This document shows, piece by piece, positions 3,114 to 39,232 of a stretch of 39,507 nt of DNA. The notes under the pieces are model-generated. The model worked only from the letters and a program-made list of their open reading frames with translations, did no database searches and had not been told where the DNA came from. The DNA is from an uncultured Lentisphaerota bacterium (GTDB taxonomy: Bacteria > Verrucomicrobiota > Kiritimatiellia > CAIQIC01): the NCBI GenBank assembly GCA_903889245.1, contig CAISWQ010000019.1:1-39507 (forward strand), written 5' to 3'. The stretch's first letter is position 1. Each line of letters begins with the position of its first letter. The position numbers and the translations under genes were made by a program.

Positions 3114-3187
3114 TGGTTGCCCGACTAGGATTCGAACCTAGACTCTGGCCTCCAAAGGGCCGTGTGCTGCCATTACACCATCGGGCA
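3114..3187 (-). tRNA. tRNA-Gln (anticodon TTG)
   Basis: Folds as a full cloverleaf on the minus strand. The 7-bp acceptor is TGCCCGA/TCGGGCA. The D arm is GTG/CAC with loop TAATGGCAG. The anticodon arm is CGGCC/GGCCA, with one C-A mismatch at its top, around loop CTTTGGA. The T arm is CTAGG/CCTAG around TTCGAAT. Bases 34-36 are TTG with a U at 33, so it reads CAA glutamine codons. A73 and an encoded CCA end follow at 3117-3114. It lies 22 bases before prs on the same strand and could share its transcript. Confidence 0.95.
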
Positions 3188-3344: not shown

Positions 3345-3487
3345 TTTTTCCAGGCCTTGGAAAACAGACCGCATTTTTTTCCAAGTCTTGGGGAAATTCC
3401 GAGGCTTCTTTCCGGGCCCGCAAAAACCGGTGGCTTGGCTTTTCAAGCCTGGTACTAACGCCCGGCACCGGTTTCCAAGCCTTGGAA
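3345..3487. repeat. Palindrome cluster A (TTTTCCAA-N3-TTGGAAAA family), four copies
   Basis: Copies lie at 3345-3364, 3374-3396 (one arm mutated), 3434-3452 (degenerate) and 3472-3487. The last abuts the hldD stop codon at 3488. The first two are close to 8-bp arms around a 3-base centre (GCC, GTC). The cluster fills the interval downstream of hldD and upstream of tRNA-Gln. It is less well conserved than clusters B and C, and the spacers are 9 to 40 bases. No repeat protein or integrase accompanies it. Confidence 0.85.
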
Positions 3488-4453
3488 TCAGACACACTGT
3501 TCCAACCATTGGACGTAGGCCCGGATGCCCTCTTCGAGGTTGGTGAAGTCGGCGCGATAGCCGGCGCCGCGGAGGCTGGCGACCTCGGCCTGCGTGCTGT
3601 ACTGGTAGCGGTCGCGGATCGCCTCCGGCATCTCGATGAACTCGAGCTTGGGTGCGCGGCCGAGCGCGGCAAAGACCGCCTGCGTCAGGTCGAGCCACGT
3701 ACGCGCCTGGCCGGTGCCGACGTTGAAAAGGCCGCCCGCCCCACCCTCCCCGGCGAAGAACAGCGTCACATCCACGGCATCCTTCACAAAGATGAAGTCG
3801 CGGACCTGCTCGCCGTCCTTGAACTCCGCCTTGTAGGACTTGAACAATTTGACGACGCCATCCTTCTTGATCTGGCCCCACGCCTTGTGCACCACGGAGC
3901 GCATATCGCCCTTGTGCGCCTCGCGCGGGCCATAGACGTTGAAGTATTTCAGGCCGACGATCCGGTCAAAGAGATTCTGCCGCAGCGCCCAGAGGTCGAA
4001 CATATGCTTGGAGTAGCCGTACATGTTCAGCGGCTGGAGGTCGGGCAGTTTTTCCAGGTCATCGCTATAGCCGAGCGCGCCATCGCCATAGGTCGCGGCG
4101 CTGGAGGCATAGACGAACCGCGTGTTGTGGTGCAGGCACCACTCGCAGAGTTCGCGGGTGAAGCGGTAGTTGTTGTCGGCCAGGTAACTCGCGTTGCGCT
4201 CGGTCGTCGCGCTGCACGCGCCGAGATGGATGACCGCATCCACTTCGCCGAGCGAATCCTGCCGCACATGGAAGCGGAAGTCATCGGCCTCCCAGTAGTC
4301 GGCGAACTTCAGGCCGACGAGGTTTTTCCACTTCTCGTCGGCGCCGAGGATGTCCACGACGAGGATGTCATCCACGCCGCGCGCGTTCAGCGCCGCGATG
4401 ACATTGCTGCCGATGAAACCCGCCCCGCCGGTGACGATGTATTTTCCGCTCAT
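3488..4453 (-). CDS. hldD: ADP-L-glycero-D-manno-heptose 6-epimerase
   Basis: Last step of ADP-heptose synthesis for the LPS inner core: epimerises ADP-D,D-heptose to ADP-L,D-heptose in the cytoplasm. The 321-residue protein has the Rossmann motif TGGAGFIGSN (8-17) and an extended-SDR Tyr145-x3-Lys149 pair in MYGYSKHMFDLW. Other family segments are LGACSATTE, FKSYKAEFKDGEQVRDFIFVKD and NVGTGQARTW. I start it at the ATG before SGKYIVTGG because AGAGG sits just upstream; an in-frame ATG 20 codons earlier adds nothing recognisable. Its heptose partners are the split hldE genes at 5502 and 11541. A palindrome repeat touches its stop codon. Confidence 0.95.
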   Translation of the reverse strand: MSGKYIVTGGAGFIGSNVIAALNARGVDDILVVDILGADEKWKNLVGLKFADYWEADDFRFHVRQDSLGEVDAVIHLGACSATTERNASYLADNNYRFTRELCEWCLHHNTRFVYASSAATYGDGALGYSDDLEKLPDLQPLNMYGYSKHMFDLWALRQNLFDRIVGLKYFNVYGPREAHKGDMRSVVHKAWGQIKKDGVVKLFKSYKAEFKDGEQVRDFIFVKDAVDVTLFFAGEGGAGGLFNVGTGQARTWLDLTQAVFAALGRAPKLEFIEMPEAIRDRYQYSTQAEVASLRGAGYRADFTNLEEGIRAYVQWLEQCV

Positions 4454-10872: not shown

Positions 10873-11544
10873 TCACTTCCTCCGCCCTTTGCCCTCCGCC
10901 TTCCGCGCCTTCTTCCCGGCGTCAAGGTGCACCTGCTTCTCCGGGTTCTTCAGATAATCCTGGACCTGTTTGCAGGCGTCCTCATAGACGCCATCGCCCA
11001 TGACGCCAATCGGCATGGTCGAGACCACCGCGAGCACGCGCTTGAGTTCGGGATCAAACACGGCGACGCGCGGGATGGTCTTGCCCGCCTGGCTGGAAGT
11101 CAGCGCCTTCGCCACCAGCGGCTGTCTCTCCGCCAAGCCCTTCAGATCTTCCACATAATCCACATAGACCGGCACGCCGACGCCCTTGAGCTTGTCGAAC
11201 GCATAGTTCGTGTTCGGCGCGGCGGCCTTCGCGCTCTTGCCCTTCAACTCGGAGAGCACAAACGCCAGCGCCTTGCCGCCCTTGGCCGCCTCCTCCTTCG
11301 CCGCGCCGAGCTGCGCGAGGTGAAAGACGCCCGCCGACAGCTTGACCTCGCCCGCGCGCGCCAGCGGCGCAAGCAGCAGCGCGGCGCAAAGTTTTCCAAG
11401 GGTTGGAAAGCCCAACCGGCGGTTTTTCCAAGGATTGGAAATTTTCGCGGAAATTTTTCCAAGCCTTGGAAAAGTCCGGGCGCTTTTTTCCAAGCCTTGG
11501 AAAAAATGGGTGGAAAAATTTCCAGGCATCGGAAAAGTCCTCAT
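10873..11544 (-). CDS. Secreted thioredoxin-fold-like protein (paralogue 2) with a repeat-encoded N-terminus
   Basis: From the ATG at 11544 the product has 223 residues. Residues 1 to about 45 are read straight through palindrome cluster B (pieces FQGLEK, FPRLGK, SNPWK, FPTLGK). Then comes a hydrophobic signal-like stretch KLCAALLLAPLARA, and a mature part related to paralogue 1 (LAFVLSELKG, VPVYVDYVEDL, TIPRVAVFD). This ATG overlaps the stop of the heptose kinase gene as ATGA. A TTG at 11415 would instead give a normal short signal peptide starting just before FPTLGK. Which start is used cannot be told from sequence. It seems the repeat inserted over the original gene start. No CxxC; function unknown. 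Confidence 0.65.
   Translation of the reverse strand: MRTFPMPGNFSTHFFQGLEKSARTFPRLGKISAKISNPWKNRRLGFPTLGKLCAALLLAPLARAGEVKLSAGVFHLAQLGAAKEEAAKGGKALAFVLSELKGKSAKAAAPNTNYAFDKLKGVGVPVYVDYVEDLKGLAERQPLVAKALTSSQAGKTIPRVAVFDPELKRVLAVVSTMPIGVMGDGVYEDACKQVQDYLKNPEKQVHLDAGKKARKAEGKGRRK
11392..11536. repeat. Palindrome cluster B, five copies
   Basis: Copies at 11392-11410 (centre GGG), 11423-11445 (GGA), 11454-11473 (GCC), 11484-11506 (GCC) and 11519-11536 (degenerate). The first four are spaced by about 12, 8 and 10 bases, and TTTTCGCGGAAA joins copies two and three. The same four-palindrome composite recurs at 28163-28274. The cluster lies over the junction between the heptose kinase gene and paralogue 2 and is read as protein in the latter. 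Confidence 0.92.
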
Positions 11545-22632: not shown

Positions 22633-22721
22633 TTAACGCAAAGGCGCAAAGTGAAGGCGGAAGACGCAAAGAAAATCTCCGCCTCTGCGTCTTGTGCTTT
22701 TCCTTTGCGCCTTTGCGTTAA
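22633..22721. mobile_element. Miniature inverted-repeat element (MITE-like), 89 bases
   Basis: Perfect 19-bp terminal inverted repeats (TTAACGCAAAGGCGCAAAG at 22633-22651 and its complement at 22703-22721) enclose a partly self-complementary middle containing AAGACGCA and TGCGTCTT. The whole unit can fold into a single long hairpin. It lies between mnmA and larE and encodes no protein. Related GCAAAGGCGCAAAG palindromes are, to my knowledge, scattered through many bacterial genomes. No target-site duplication is clear. Confidence 0.85.
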
Positions 22722-23882: not shown

Positions 23883-25028
23883 TCAGCCGGCCGGGGCCAA
23901 TGCTCGGGTGAGATCGGCGGTGAGGTCATCGCCATCTTCGAGGCCGGTGGATAAGCGCAGCAAGCCATCGTTGATACCGCGGGCGAGACGCTCGGAGCGC
24001 GGCATGGCGGCGTGCGACATCATCGGCGGATAGGAGAGGATACTCTCGACGCCACCAAGGCTGACCGCCGGCAGCGAAAGCTCGACGCGCTTGAGCAGCG
24101 CCTTGGCGGCCGGGCCGCCGCCGGCCAGTTCGAACGAAACCACCGCGCCGCCACCGGAGGACTGGCGCAGATGGACCTCGCGGCCGGGATGCGAGGGCAG
24201 CGTGGGATAGAAAACCTGCTTCACTTCCGGTCGTGCCTGAAGCCAGTGGGCAACGCGTTCGGCGGTTTGCTGCTGGGCGGCGAGGCGCACCCCCAGCGTT
24301 TTCAACCCGCGCAGGGTCAGCCACGAGTCCTGCGGGCCGAGAATCGCGCCGAAATTATTCTGCAGGCTCTTCAGCTTCCGGCCGAGCGCCTCCTCGCGCG
24401 CGACGGCGAGGCCGGCAATCAAATCGCTGTGCCCGCCGATGAACTTGGTGGCGCTGTGGACGACGATGTCGAAGCCGAGTTCGAGCGGGCGCTGGGCGGC
24501 GGGCGTCATGAAGGTGTTGTCGGTGATCGCCAGCAGCTGATGCTCGTGCGCGAGCTGCGCGACGGCGGCGAGATCGGTGACCTTGAGCAACGGGTTGCTC
24601 GGCGACTCGACGAAGATCGCGCGCGTGGCCGGACGGATCGCGGCGCGCACCTTGTCCAGGTCAGTCGTATCCACGAAGGTCACCTCCATCTGCCATTGCT
24701 TGAAGATGGTGGTCAGCACGCGATAGGTGCCGCCATAGATGTCCTCGCCGGCGATAAGGTGGTCGCCGGGCTTGAACAGCAGCAGCACGGTGGAGGTCGA
24801 CGCCATGCCGGAGGCAAACGCGAGGCCCACCGCACCGCCTTCAAGATCGGCGATGGCGAGCTCCAGCGCCTCGCGCGTCGGGTTGTCGCTGCGCGAATAG
24901 TCATAGGCCTGGCGCTGCTCAACATCTTTTTGCGCGAAGGTGGAACACTGATAGATAGGCACGCTGGAAGCGCCTGTGTAGGGATCGCGGTCGCGGCCGG
25001 CATGCAGCAGACGGGTGGCGAGTTTCAC
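23883..25028 (-). CDS. metC: PLP-dependent cystathionine lyase (MetC/MccB-like)
   Basis: Predicted to split cystathionine, giving homocysteine (beta-lyase) or cysteine (gamma-lyase). The 381-residue protein is of the Cys/Met metabolism PLP family: YDYSRSDNPTR, FASGMAS, YGGTYRV, ESPSNPLLKVTD, DNTFMTP and the PLP lysine in HSATKFIGGH (Lys195), with SLGGVESILSYP near the end. It resembles Bacillus MetC more than MetI. It begins with GTG preceded by GGAGG; GTGA overlaps the stop of the upstream synthase gene, so the pair is translationally coupled, as metI-metC is in Bacillus. Beta versus gamma cleavage cannot be settled by eye. Confidence 0.88.
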   Translation of the reverse strand: MKLATRLLHAGRDRDPYTGASSVPIYQCSTFAQKDVEQRQAYDYSRSDNPTREALELAIADLEGGAVGLAFASGMASTSTVLLLFKPGDHLIAGEDIYGGTYRVLTTIFKQWQMEVTFVDTTDLDKVRAAIRPATRAIFVESPSNPLLKVTDLAAVAQLAHEHQLLAITDNTFMTPAAQRPLELGFDIVVHSATKFIGGHSDLIAGLAVAREEALGRKLKSLQNNFGAILGPQDSWLTLRGLKTLGVRLAAQQQTAERVAHWLQARPEVKQVFYPTLPSHPGREVHLRQSSGGGAVVSFELAGGGPAAKALLKRVELSLPAVSLGGVESILSYPPMMSHAAMPRSERLARGINDGLLRLSTGLEDGDDLTADLTRALAPAG

Positions 25029-26164
25029 AAGACGGCCTCCAGATCGGCGAGCAGGTCGCCGGCATTTTCGATGCCCACGGAAAGGCGCAGCAGCCGGTCG
25101 TGGATGCCCAGACGGTCGCGGATCTCCACGGGGATGTCGGCATGCGTCTGCGCGATGGGATAGGTGATGAGAGACTCGACGCCGCCAAGGCTCTCGGCAA
25201 AGCGAAACACCCGCACGCTCTTCAAGATGTCCGGCACGCGCGCCGCGGACTCGATGGCGAAGGCGATCATCGCCCCGCAGCCGATGCTCTCGCGCGCGAG
25301 CACATCGCGGCCCGGATGCGCGGTCAGGCCGGGATACCAGACCTGCGTCACGCGCGGATGTTGCGCGAGGAACTCGGCGATGCGTTGCGCGTTGGCCTCC
25401 TGCTGGCGCAGGCGCAGCGGCAGGGTCTTGAGGCCGCGCAACAGCAGCCACGCATCCTGCGGGCCGAGCACGCCGCCGACCGCGTTCTGGAAAAACGCCA
25501 GCCGCTCGCCGAGTTCCGGCGTGCGCGCGATGAGCACGCCGGCGACCACGTCGTTGTGCCCACCGAGATATTTGCTCGCGCTATAGACCACGAGGTCCGC
25601 GCCCAGTTCCAACGGCCGCTGCAGGAGGAAGGTCAGGAAAGTGTTGTCCACCACCGTCAACTGTCCGCGCACCTTGGCCAGCGCAGCAATGGCGCGGATG
25701 TCGGCAATCTTCAGCAGCGGATTGCTCGGCGTCTCCAGCAGCACCGCGCGGACCCGCTCCTGCGCCAGCGCGGCCGCGACGAGTTCCAGGCGCGAGGTAT
25801 CCACATAGACCGCCTCGATGCCGACCGGCCGGAACACTTTTTCAAACAGGCGGAACGTGCCGCCATACAAATCCTCGGTGACGACAAGGCGGTCGCCGGG
25901 CTGGAATAACCGCAGCGCGCAATCTATCGCCGCTAAACCGGAAGCGAAGGCGAGGCCGCGCGCGCCGCCCTCGGCGGCGGCGAGCGTCTCCTCCAGCGCG
26001 AGGCGCGTCGGGTTCGAGGTGCGCGAGTAGTCGAAGCCGGTGCTGCGACCGAGTTCGGGATGCTCGAAGGTCGCGGTTTGGTAGATCGGCGTGACGAGAG
26101 CGCCGGTCCGCGGGTCACACCCGCAGCCGGCCTGCGCCAGCAGGGTTTCGATTTTTTTGCTCAT
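25025..26164 (-). CDS. metI: Cystathionine gamma-synthase / O-acylhomoserine thiol-lyase (MetI-like)
   Basis: Joins an activated homoserine with cysteine to make cystathionine; MetI types can also use sulfide. The 379-residue protein has TGFDYSRTSNPTR (42-54), GLAFASGLAAI, DLYGGTFRLFE, ETPSNPLLKIADI, the PLP lysine in YSASKYLGGH (Lys198), RFAESLGGVESLITYP and a C-terminal LLRLSVGIENAGDL. Block order and wording are close to Bacillus MetI. The next gene, the lyase, overlaps by four bases. A MetY gene (37901) and cysK (35889) provide alternative sulfide-fixing routes in the same window. The leader has no strong ribosome-binding site. Confidence 0.88.
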   Translation of the reverse strand: MSKKIETLLAQAGCGCDPRTGALVTPIYQTATFEHPELGRSTGFDYSRTSNPTRLALEETLAAAEGGARGLAFASGLAAIDCALRLFQPGDRLVVTEDLYGGTFRLFEKVFRPVGIEAVYVDTSRLELVAAALAQERVRAVLLETPSNPLLKIADIRAIAALAKVRGQLTVVDNTFLTFLLQRPLELGADLVVYSASKYLGGHNDVVAGVLIARTPELGERLAFFQNAVGGVLGPQDAWLLLRGLKTLPLRLRQQEANAQRIAEFLAQHPRVTQVWYPGLTAHPGRDVLARESIGCGAMIAFAIESAARVPDILKSVRVFRFAESLGGVESLITYPIAQTHADIPVEIRDRLGIHDRLLRLSVGIENAGDLLADLEAVL

Positions 26165-28162: not shown

Positions 28163-28274
28163 TTTTCCAAGGATTGGAAAAGCAGAGGGCCGGTTTTTCC
28201 GAAGATTGGAACTTTTCGCGGAAAATTTTCCAAGGCTTGGAAAAAAGCAGGGGGCTTTTTCCAAGCCTTGGAAA
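28163..28274. repeat. Palindrome cluster C, four copies
   Basis: Copies at 28163-28181 (centre GGA, perfect arms), 28194-28216 (degenerate), 28226-28246 (GGC) and 28256-28274 (GCC). The order, spacing and the linking TTTTCGCGGAAA match copies one to four of cluster B at 11.4 kb, in the same orientation. Both are therefore copies of one composite element of about 112-115 bases. It lies between the DUF2061 gene stop and moeB. Reading frames stay open through it in both directions, but no gene is implied. Confidence 0.92.
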
Positions 28275-31694: not shown

Positions 31695-33410
31695 ATGAAA
31701 GCCAAACCCGAATTGACCCAGGTCGAGCGCGACAAGCTCGCCATCCCTCCCGACTTTGATTTCAAGAACGACATCGCCGCGCGGCCGCTGGAATCCATCC
31801 CGCCCAACGTGCTCGCGATGTTCAAGTGGACCGGCATCTACCAACAACTCCAGCGCGGCTTCTTCATGATGCGCGTACGCATCCCCGGCGGGCGGCTGAC
31901 CGCCGACCAGCTTGAGCGCATCGCCGACCTCGGCGATCAGTATGCGCAAGGCGAGCTCTGTCTCACCACGCGCCAGACGTTCCAGCTCCACTGGCTGCGA
32001 AAGGACGATCTCTGGAAGGTGCTCGCAGGCGTCGCGGAGGCGGGGCTCGACACGAAAAACGCCTGCGGCGATGTCGTACGCAACGTGGTGACCTGTCCGC
32101 TGCAGGGCGTCTGCCCGCACGAAGCGCATGATGTGCGCGACATGCTTTTGACCTTGGCGAACGATCCCGAACTGAAGGACCAGCAGCGCAACCTCCCGCG
32201 CAAGCACAAGATCGCCGTCAATGGCTGCGGCCGCGCGTGCGGCTTGACGCTGATGAACTGCCAGAGCTGGTTTCCCGTACAGCGGCCCGCTCCCGGAGGC
32301 GGGGTGGAGACCGGCTGGCGCTGGTATGCCGGCGGCGGACTCGGCGCGCGGCCGCACATGGCGCAGTGTATCTACGCCTGGGTTCCGGAGAGCCTGGTGC
32401 TGCCGGTGACGCAGGCGTGCGTCGAGGTTTTCCGCCGGCTCGGCGACCGCCGCGTGCGCGCCAACGCGCGCTTGAAGATCGTGGTGGCCAAGCTCGGCGC
32501 GGCCGGCTTCGCCGACGAAATCGAAAAAGTGCTCGTCGAGCGCGGTTTTCCAAGGCTTGGAAAAAACGATGCTCCGGCTTTCCAATCCTTGGAAAAACTC
32601 GAACGGCCCACCGGCGCGGAGGAAATCGCGCCGCCGTTCCTGGTCGGTCAGCCGGTGCTTCCGCAGCGGCAAGCGGGCTTCAACACCGTCCGCGTTTTGA
32701 TCCCGCGCGCCGAGATGAGCTGTGCACAGGCGCGGCAACTGGCGCGCTGGGCGCGCGAGTTTGGCAATGGCACGCTGATGCTGACCGCACGGCAGAATGT
32801 TCAGTTCCCTTCCGTGGCGGATGCGCAGGTCGCGCCGCTCCAGGCGCAACTGCGCGCCGCCGGTTTTGTCCTCGAAGGGTTCGAGCAGGCGCCGGACGTG
32901 GTCGCCTGCGTCGGCACCACCGTCTGCAACCTCGCGGTCGCCGATACGCCCAATGCCTGCCGCCGCCTGCGCGAGGAACTCGCGGCCGACCGCGCCTTCT
33001 GGGAGGCCGTCGGCCCGCTGCGGATTCACATGAACGGCTGTCCGAACTCCTGCGCGCAGCACTGGATCGCCGACCTCGGCCTGCGCGGCATGCGGCGGCG
33101 CACCGAAAACGGCAGCGAGGAAGGTTTCCAGCTTAGCGTGGGTGGCGACCAGGCAGGCGCAGGCCATATCGCGCAACCCGTGTGCGAAACCTCGGCGAGC
33201 GCACTGGTGCCGACTGTGCGGCGCGTGCTGGAACTCTACCTGGCCCACCGCAGTGGAAAGAGCGAAACCTTCGGCGCCTTTGCGCAGCGCGTCGGCGCGG
33301 CGCAAATCGCCACATGGCTCGGCACGCCGGCCATCCCCGGCGAACCGGTCAACGAAACCAACCAGCAATTACGCGCCGCCTTCGAGCAAGCCGTGGGCGG
33401 AGCGGAGTGA
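31695..33410 (+). CDS. sir: Siroheme [4Fe-4S] nitrite/sulfite reductase, NirA/Sir type
   Basis: Six-electron reduction of sulfite to sulfide (or nitrite to ammonia). The 571 residues form two homologous halves. The C-terminal half has the usual cluster-siroheme ligands Cys405-x5-Cys411 and Cys449-x3-Cys453 (MNGCPNSC). The N-terminal half also has four cysteines in the same spacing, 134/140 and 178/182 (NGCGRAC), which is unusual. The neighbouring cysHDN favours sulfite as substrate. Residues 284-301 between the halves (GFPRLGK and FQSLEK) are encoded by two copies of the TTTTCCAA palindrome, in frame. Start chosen at the ATG after the promoter; longer readings run through the operator. Confidence 0.9.
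   Translation: MKAKPELTQVERDKLAIPPDFDFKNDIAARPLESIPPNVLAMFKWTGIYQQLQRGFFMMRVRIPGGRLTADQLERIADLGDQYAQGELCLTTRQTFQLHWLRKDDLWKVLAGVAEAGLDTKNACGDVVRNVVTCPLQGVCPHEAHDVRDMLLTLANDPELKDQQRNLPRKHKIAVNGCGRACGLTLMNCQSWFPVQRPAPGGGVETGWRWYAGGGLGARPHMAQCIYAWVPESLVLPVTQACVEVFRRLGDRRVRANARLKIVVAKLGAAGFADEIEKVLVERGFPRLGKNDAPAFQSLEKLERPTGAEEIAPPFLVGQPVLPQRQAGFNTVRVLIPRAEMSCAQARQLARWAREFGNGTLMLTARQNVQFPSVADAQVAPLQAQLRAAGFVLEGFEQAPDVVACVGTTVCNLAVADTPNACRRLREELAADRAFWEAVGPLRIHMNGCPNSCAQHWIADLGLRGMRRRTENGSEEGFQLSVGGDQAGAGHIAQPVCETSASALVPTVRRVLELYLAHRSGKSETFGAFAQRVGAAQIATWLGTPAIPGEPVNETNQQLRAAFEQAVGGAE
32546..32597. repeat. Palindrome cluster D, two copies inside the sulfite reductase gene
   Basis: Copies at 32546-32566 (centre GGC, perfect arms) and 32579-32597 (centre TCC), 12 bases apart. 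Both are translated, giving FPRLGK and FQSLEK in the linker between the two half-domains, with the frame kept. This is the only cluster lying fully within a conserved enzyme gene. Confidence 0.9.
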
Positions 33411-37763: not shown

Positions 37764-37843
37764 TTTTCCAAGGCGTGGACATTATTTCTTCGTTTTTTCC
37801 AAGGCTTGGAAAATTTCGGCTTCACTTTTCCAAGCCTTGGAAA
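37764..37843. repeat. Palindrome cluster E, three copies
   Basis: Copies at 37764-37779 (right arm decayed), 37793-37816 (centre GGC, perfect) and 37826-37843 (GCC), with spacers of 13 and 9 bases. It lies between the metY stop and ridA, in the same intergenic region as the triple-hairpin element and two further hairpins. Confidence 0.88.

Positions 37844-37900: not shown

Positions 37901-39232
<1,332 letters not shown>

Follow-up and report, generated by a model that had tools for sequence, protein, structure and literature searches.

The window, a 39,507-nt stretch of DNA from an uncultured Lentisphaerota bacterium, carries at 31695..33410 on the plus strand an open and intact reading frame of 571 amino acids that encodes a NirA-like siroheme sulfite/nitrite reductase. 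The protein matches NIR_SIR and NIR_SIR_ferr in Pfam, and a Foldseek search with its predicted model matched plant nitrite reductases and M. tuberculosis NirA. The best NCBIfam match is the NirA family, but the score does not reach the curated cut-off of any named subfamily, and so the assignment extends to the family and not to an exact substrate. C405, C411, C449, and C453 are among the residues that are invariant across 23 aligned reductases, which fits intact cluster ligands, and an intact frame and ligands had both been claimed by a sequence-only reading of this DNA. The first NIR_SIR domain spans residues 124-280 and the next strand in the predicted structure begins at residue 321; residues 284-301, to which the same reading had assigned a pair of translated palindromes, therefore form an interdomain linker, as it had proposed.

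Both palindromes are 17 nt in length and are translated in frame. Palindrome 1 (32547..32563), TTTCCAAGGCTTGGAAA, is an exact match to the family motif described below and encodes FPRLGK (residues 285-290). It is followed by a 15-nt spacer (32564..32578) and by palindrome 2 (32579..32595), TTTCCAATCCTTGGAAA, which encodes FQSLEK (residues 296-301), giving a start-to-start spacing of 32 nt that is found also in the congener G002 and is kept in the congener G003, where the second palindrome is degenerate. Reductase homologues were drawn from genome contigs and 96 related genomes, and an alignment of 23 proteins, including that of the window, was produced. The segment FPRLGKNDAPA (residues 285-295) is a clean 11-residue gap in 20 of the 23 sequences, including that from the same-genus G001, and is present only in the window protein and in the reductases of G002 and G003, which are 83-84% identical to it. 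These three sequences form one clade with a support of 1.000 on a tree from which the linker columns were excluded. Homologues had been expected to lack approximately 18 residues here; a gap was indeed found, but it corresponds to 11 residues, an in-frame insertion of 33 nt at 32547..32579 on the plus strand. Judged from the alignment, only palindrome 1 and the spacer are extra, and palindrome 2 lies on ancestral codons, as the nearer homologues without the insert have IQGLERIE-type residues opposite FQSLEKLE. The outgroups fix both the direction and the size of the insertion. That the segment is instead ancestral protein, lost by the other lineages, is hardly credible: its presence in three species is the only point in favour, whereas it is absent from 20 homologues, G001 among them, and its DNA is an exact member of a repeat family. 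Distant homologues with the same residues, named beforehand as the evidence that would speak against an insertion, were not seen among these 20, and the insertion is lineage-specific.

The length of the insert, 33 nt, is divisible by three and close to that of one array unit (31-32 nt), from which we infer that a single unit was trimmed to frame. In the predicted structure, which has an overall pLDDT of 85.9, the insert lies in a loop of low confidence (block-mean pLDDT of 74 and 59, and below 50 at residues 290-292). This is consistent with a probable surface loop between the domains, the outcome that had been anticipated for a structural model. As it is shared by three species at 83-84% identity, the insertion is an old event and is not, on its own, direct proof of element movement, contrary to the earlier claim that it provides direct evidence of mobility. 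At synonymous sites of the three reductase genes, the palindrome was retained at 5/5 compared to 13/95 in a first test (p 1e-4), but a conditional control (5/5 versus 13/22, 13/21, and 13/16) removed the significance, and so selection on the DNA motif within the gene is unproven. Palindromes 1 and 2 can pair mutually (RNA z -4.3, DNA z -4.7); since any two such palindromes would pair, this does not separate a role in RNA from one in DNA.

Further members of the family are present elsewhere in the window. Motif matches at 3347, 3378, and 3472 (3347..3488) are intergenic or at a gene edge, and a motif match also defines an array of three palindromes at 37765..37843. Repeat and motif matches together define an array at 11393..11535, in which five palindromes follow each other at intervals of 31-32 nt, and an array of four at 28164..28274. 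A 114-nt stretch of the latter shares 82% identity with the array at 11390, and this similarity extends to the spacers. Rfam contains no family for the palindrome, and the only hit that it gives in the window is to a tRNA gene at 3117-3187 on the minus strand. Outside the palindrome family, the window possesses an inverted repeat at 22633-22721, with 39-nt arms that are 85% complementary and 11 nt apart, and three stretches that are 60-77% alike, probably paralogous genes, at 24543-26032 and 38675-39037.

Palindromes were analysed across 1.82 Mb of the window's genome (G000); this and the other genomes are metagenome-assembled. The motif TTTCCAAGSCTTGGAAA is present in 691 exact copies in the genome, and 865 copies with at most two mismatches were found in the 1.82 Mb. 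In 1.02 Mb there were 483 such copies compared to 0 in shuffled sequence, which excludes a chance origin. Across the class, a free-centre form of the palindrome, TTTCCAANNNTTGGAAA, exhibits a patchy distribution, being found in 93 of 288 genomes, and counts across the class range from 0 to 1108. The reductase insertion is real, in frame, and a member of this large family. The family is undescribed in the sources searched; neither the text of the motif nor any description of it was found in open-licence literature.

The distance from one palindrome to the next in the 1.82 Mb is 31 nt in 295 cases and 32 nt in 165, which equals three helical turns, and the same spacing is present in samples of G001, G007, G009, and G109. 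Another 14 spacings, which fall outside the multiples of 31-32 nt, favour multiples of ~10.5 nt (Rayleigh p ~5e-4), in a test of 14 values only, some of which are perhaps copies of each other. The palindrome is conserved but most spacers are not. At 90% identity, spacers are shared between loci ~7 times as often as under the null, and conserved spacers in some arrays reveal a multi-palindrome element; no conserved flanks were found beyond the arrays. Palindromes are preferentially located on the 3' side of genes (131 versus 65) and contain no stop codon in any frame.

Orthologous intergenic arrays differ by whole units at three sites (4 versus 1, 3 versus 2, and 4 versus 2). Such differences could point to growth in situ, in which local tandem duplication by slippage would have extended a near-palindromic codon stretch with no copy arriving from elsewhere, and so could the reductase of G001, which lacks the insert and yet possesses motif-like codons at the position of palindrome 2, TATCCAGGGTTTGGAAC, with 3/14 mismatches to the motif as counted by eye. 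However, neighbouring spacers within arrays are unlike each other, with 0/128 pairs at 90% identity or above, and the same motif is present at hundreds of loci, which makes such an origin of the reductase insert unlikely. Spacer similarity thus lends no support to an origin of the arrays by tandem duplication. Upstream of the G001 reductase gene, which is without the genic insert, three palindromes with at most two mismatches lie 32 nt apart at a distance of ~120-200 nt (L021 3286-3366).

The distribution of arrays relative to genes was determined using gene calls from our own simple codon-usage predictor, which assigns 86% of the sequence as coding. Of 360 arrays, 279 (78%) are intergenic, 34 lie at gene edges, and 47 lie inside genes; because start calls are uncertain, the genic class excludes arrays that come to within 30 nt of the predicted end of a gene, among them that at 11393. 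A second set, to which weaker flanking palindromes were also admitted, includes 34 arrays with at least two palindromes inside predicted genes in the 1.82 Mb. Similar in-frame copies are present in ~30 genes besides the reductase in the portion of the genome that was analysed, photolyase and SufD among them, which upholds the earlier suggestion that the element is compatible with coding sequence. The palindrome segment of photolyase (G000 C30 14925-16451) is absent from G002 and from the solved photolyases that were aligned. That of SufD corresponds to a gap in both G001 and G037, and a palindrome of G003 lies close to the same SufD residues; orthologues of both proteins in related genomes were judged solely by match coordinates. 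A second part of the photolyase, residues ~250-281, is likewise left unmatched by the G002 coordinates. In-gene arrays with multiple palindromes favour a spacing of 32 nt over 31 nt (26 versus 17), whereas intergenic arrays do not (146 versus 307; p 3e-4). The commonest in-gene reading is FPSLGK-FQALEK, with 11 cases. In three sulfatase-like proteins (G000 C12, C16, and C26), FPSLGK/FPMLGK...FQ(A/G)LEK is located just behind a signal-like N-terminus.

Rickettsia palindromic elements (RPEs) are short palindromic repeats found in frame within unrelated conserved genes (PMC10969869), and a resemblance to them had been pointed out by the sequence-only reading. The resemblance is one of behaviour, as in-frame insertion in conserved genes is seen here in the reductase, photolyase, and SufD, and our comparison does not support membership of the RPEs. 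RPE sequences of R. conorii carry a CGTC tag (PMC3733652), which was found near 5.2% of the palindromes compared to 8.1% of random positions. In addition, RPEs, which were compared by description, are ~150 bp in length, whereas the present family consists of 17-nt palindromes in phased 31/32-nt arrays, is mostly intergenic, and belongs to another group of organisms. It is an apparently independent case, outside Rickettsia, of palindromic DNA that is translated inside conserved enzymes.

REP/BIME sequences exhibit a high copy number, palindromic units and spacers in mosaic arrays, a preference for gene ends, and occasional intragenic copies (PMC3733652, PMC2817692). Regularly spaced palindromic units, mosaic arrays, and a mainly extragenic location are all shared with BIMEs. 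Unlike REP/BIME, however, the family has neither the GTAG nor the CGTC tag, its palindrome is short and near-perfect, and its arrays are helically phased and evenly spaced along the chromosome; GTAG, the REP/REPIN tag, was found near 1.2% of palindromes against a background of 2.5%. Y1_Tnp gave two matches in G000, with a best E of 1.1e-5, and no link to palindrome number was seen for Y1 transposases, which occur in 246/288 class genomes and are common in those without the palindrome. A known family of REP/RAYT or RPE type could account for palindromes that are short, numerous, arranged in mosaic arrays, more frequent towards the 3' side of genes, and in some genes read in frame, but the absence of both tags, the distribution of Y1, and the lack of the motif text in open-licence literature make it very unlikely that the palindromes belong to one. 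Palindromic repeats and a near-fixed spacer length are also features of CRISPR arrays. In contrast to these, the family comprises hundreds of tiny arrays with 14-15 nt spacers and includes in-gene copies, and CRISPR identity is further argued against because some spacers are shared between loci.

Spacing along the chromosome was analysed in nine G000 contig stretches of at least 60 kb. Intervals between array-bearing intergenic regions have a CV of 0.61 compared to 0.88 in an intergenic-length-matched permutation, in which 0/500 replicates were as low. The pair correlation of arrays is 0.06 below 500 bp, where it is affected by the merging of arrays less than 200 bp apart, 0.26 at 500-1000 bp, and ~1 above 3 kb, and arrays thus avoid each other over ~2-3 kb. 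Arrays inside genes share this behaviour, with the nearest array at 2.5 kb compared to 1.3 kb for genic points chosen at random (p 6e-6). Spacing is also fairly even in samples of G001 and G109.

Given the three-turn spacing, the variable spacers, the changes by whole units, and the distance kept between arrays, the palindromes are most likely sites for a dimeric DNA-binding protein. We give a probability of approximately 60% to the reading that the reductase gene gained a palindrome unit in frame and that the family comprises dispersed arrays of such putative protein-binding sites. In the ancestor of the window species and its two congeners, one 33-nt unit of palindrome and spacer would have been added beside pre-existing IQGLE-type codons, producing a two-palindrome array that is read as protein. 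The insert may have survived owing to a length that is a multiple of three, the lack of a stop codon in any frame, and the placement in a flexible interdomain loop, and the enzyme presumably still works with it. Copying of arrays between loci would require an enzyme; neither a mobilising enzyme nor a binding protein was identified.

The same arrays could alternatively be non-autonomous mobile DNA that disperses purely selfishly and without host function, with selection leaving only those genic copies that are in frame and in tolerated loops. Shared spacers between loci, patchy counts across the class, the intergenic excess of arrays, and the lineage specificity of genic inserts are all consistent with this, and even spacing could stem from target immunity or from recombinational loss of close pairs. 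Against it, the arrays have no conserved flanks and neither the GTAG nor the CGTC tag, the palindrome is conserved while most spacers are not, the odd spacings are helically phased, and fairly even spacing recurs in the G001 and G109 samples; purely selfish dispersal is possible but on balance doubtful. The evenness of the spacing and the three-turn phasing allow a long-standing question, whether such repeats are selfish DNA or chromosomal sites, to be tested in one lineage. An extension of the binding-site reading, which we propose tentatively, is that phased palindrome arrays, putatively bound by protein and ~2-5 kb apart, serve as a class-wide marking of the chromosome and are placed in genes, adding peptides to the encoded proteins, where no intergenic site is available.
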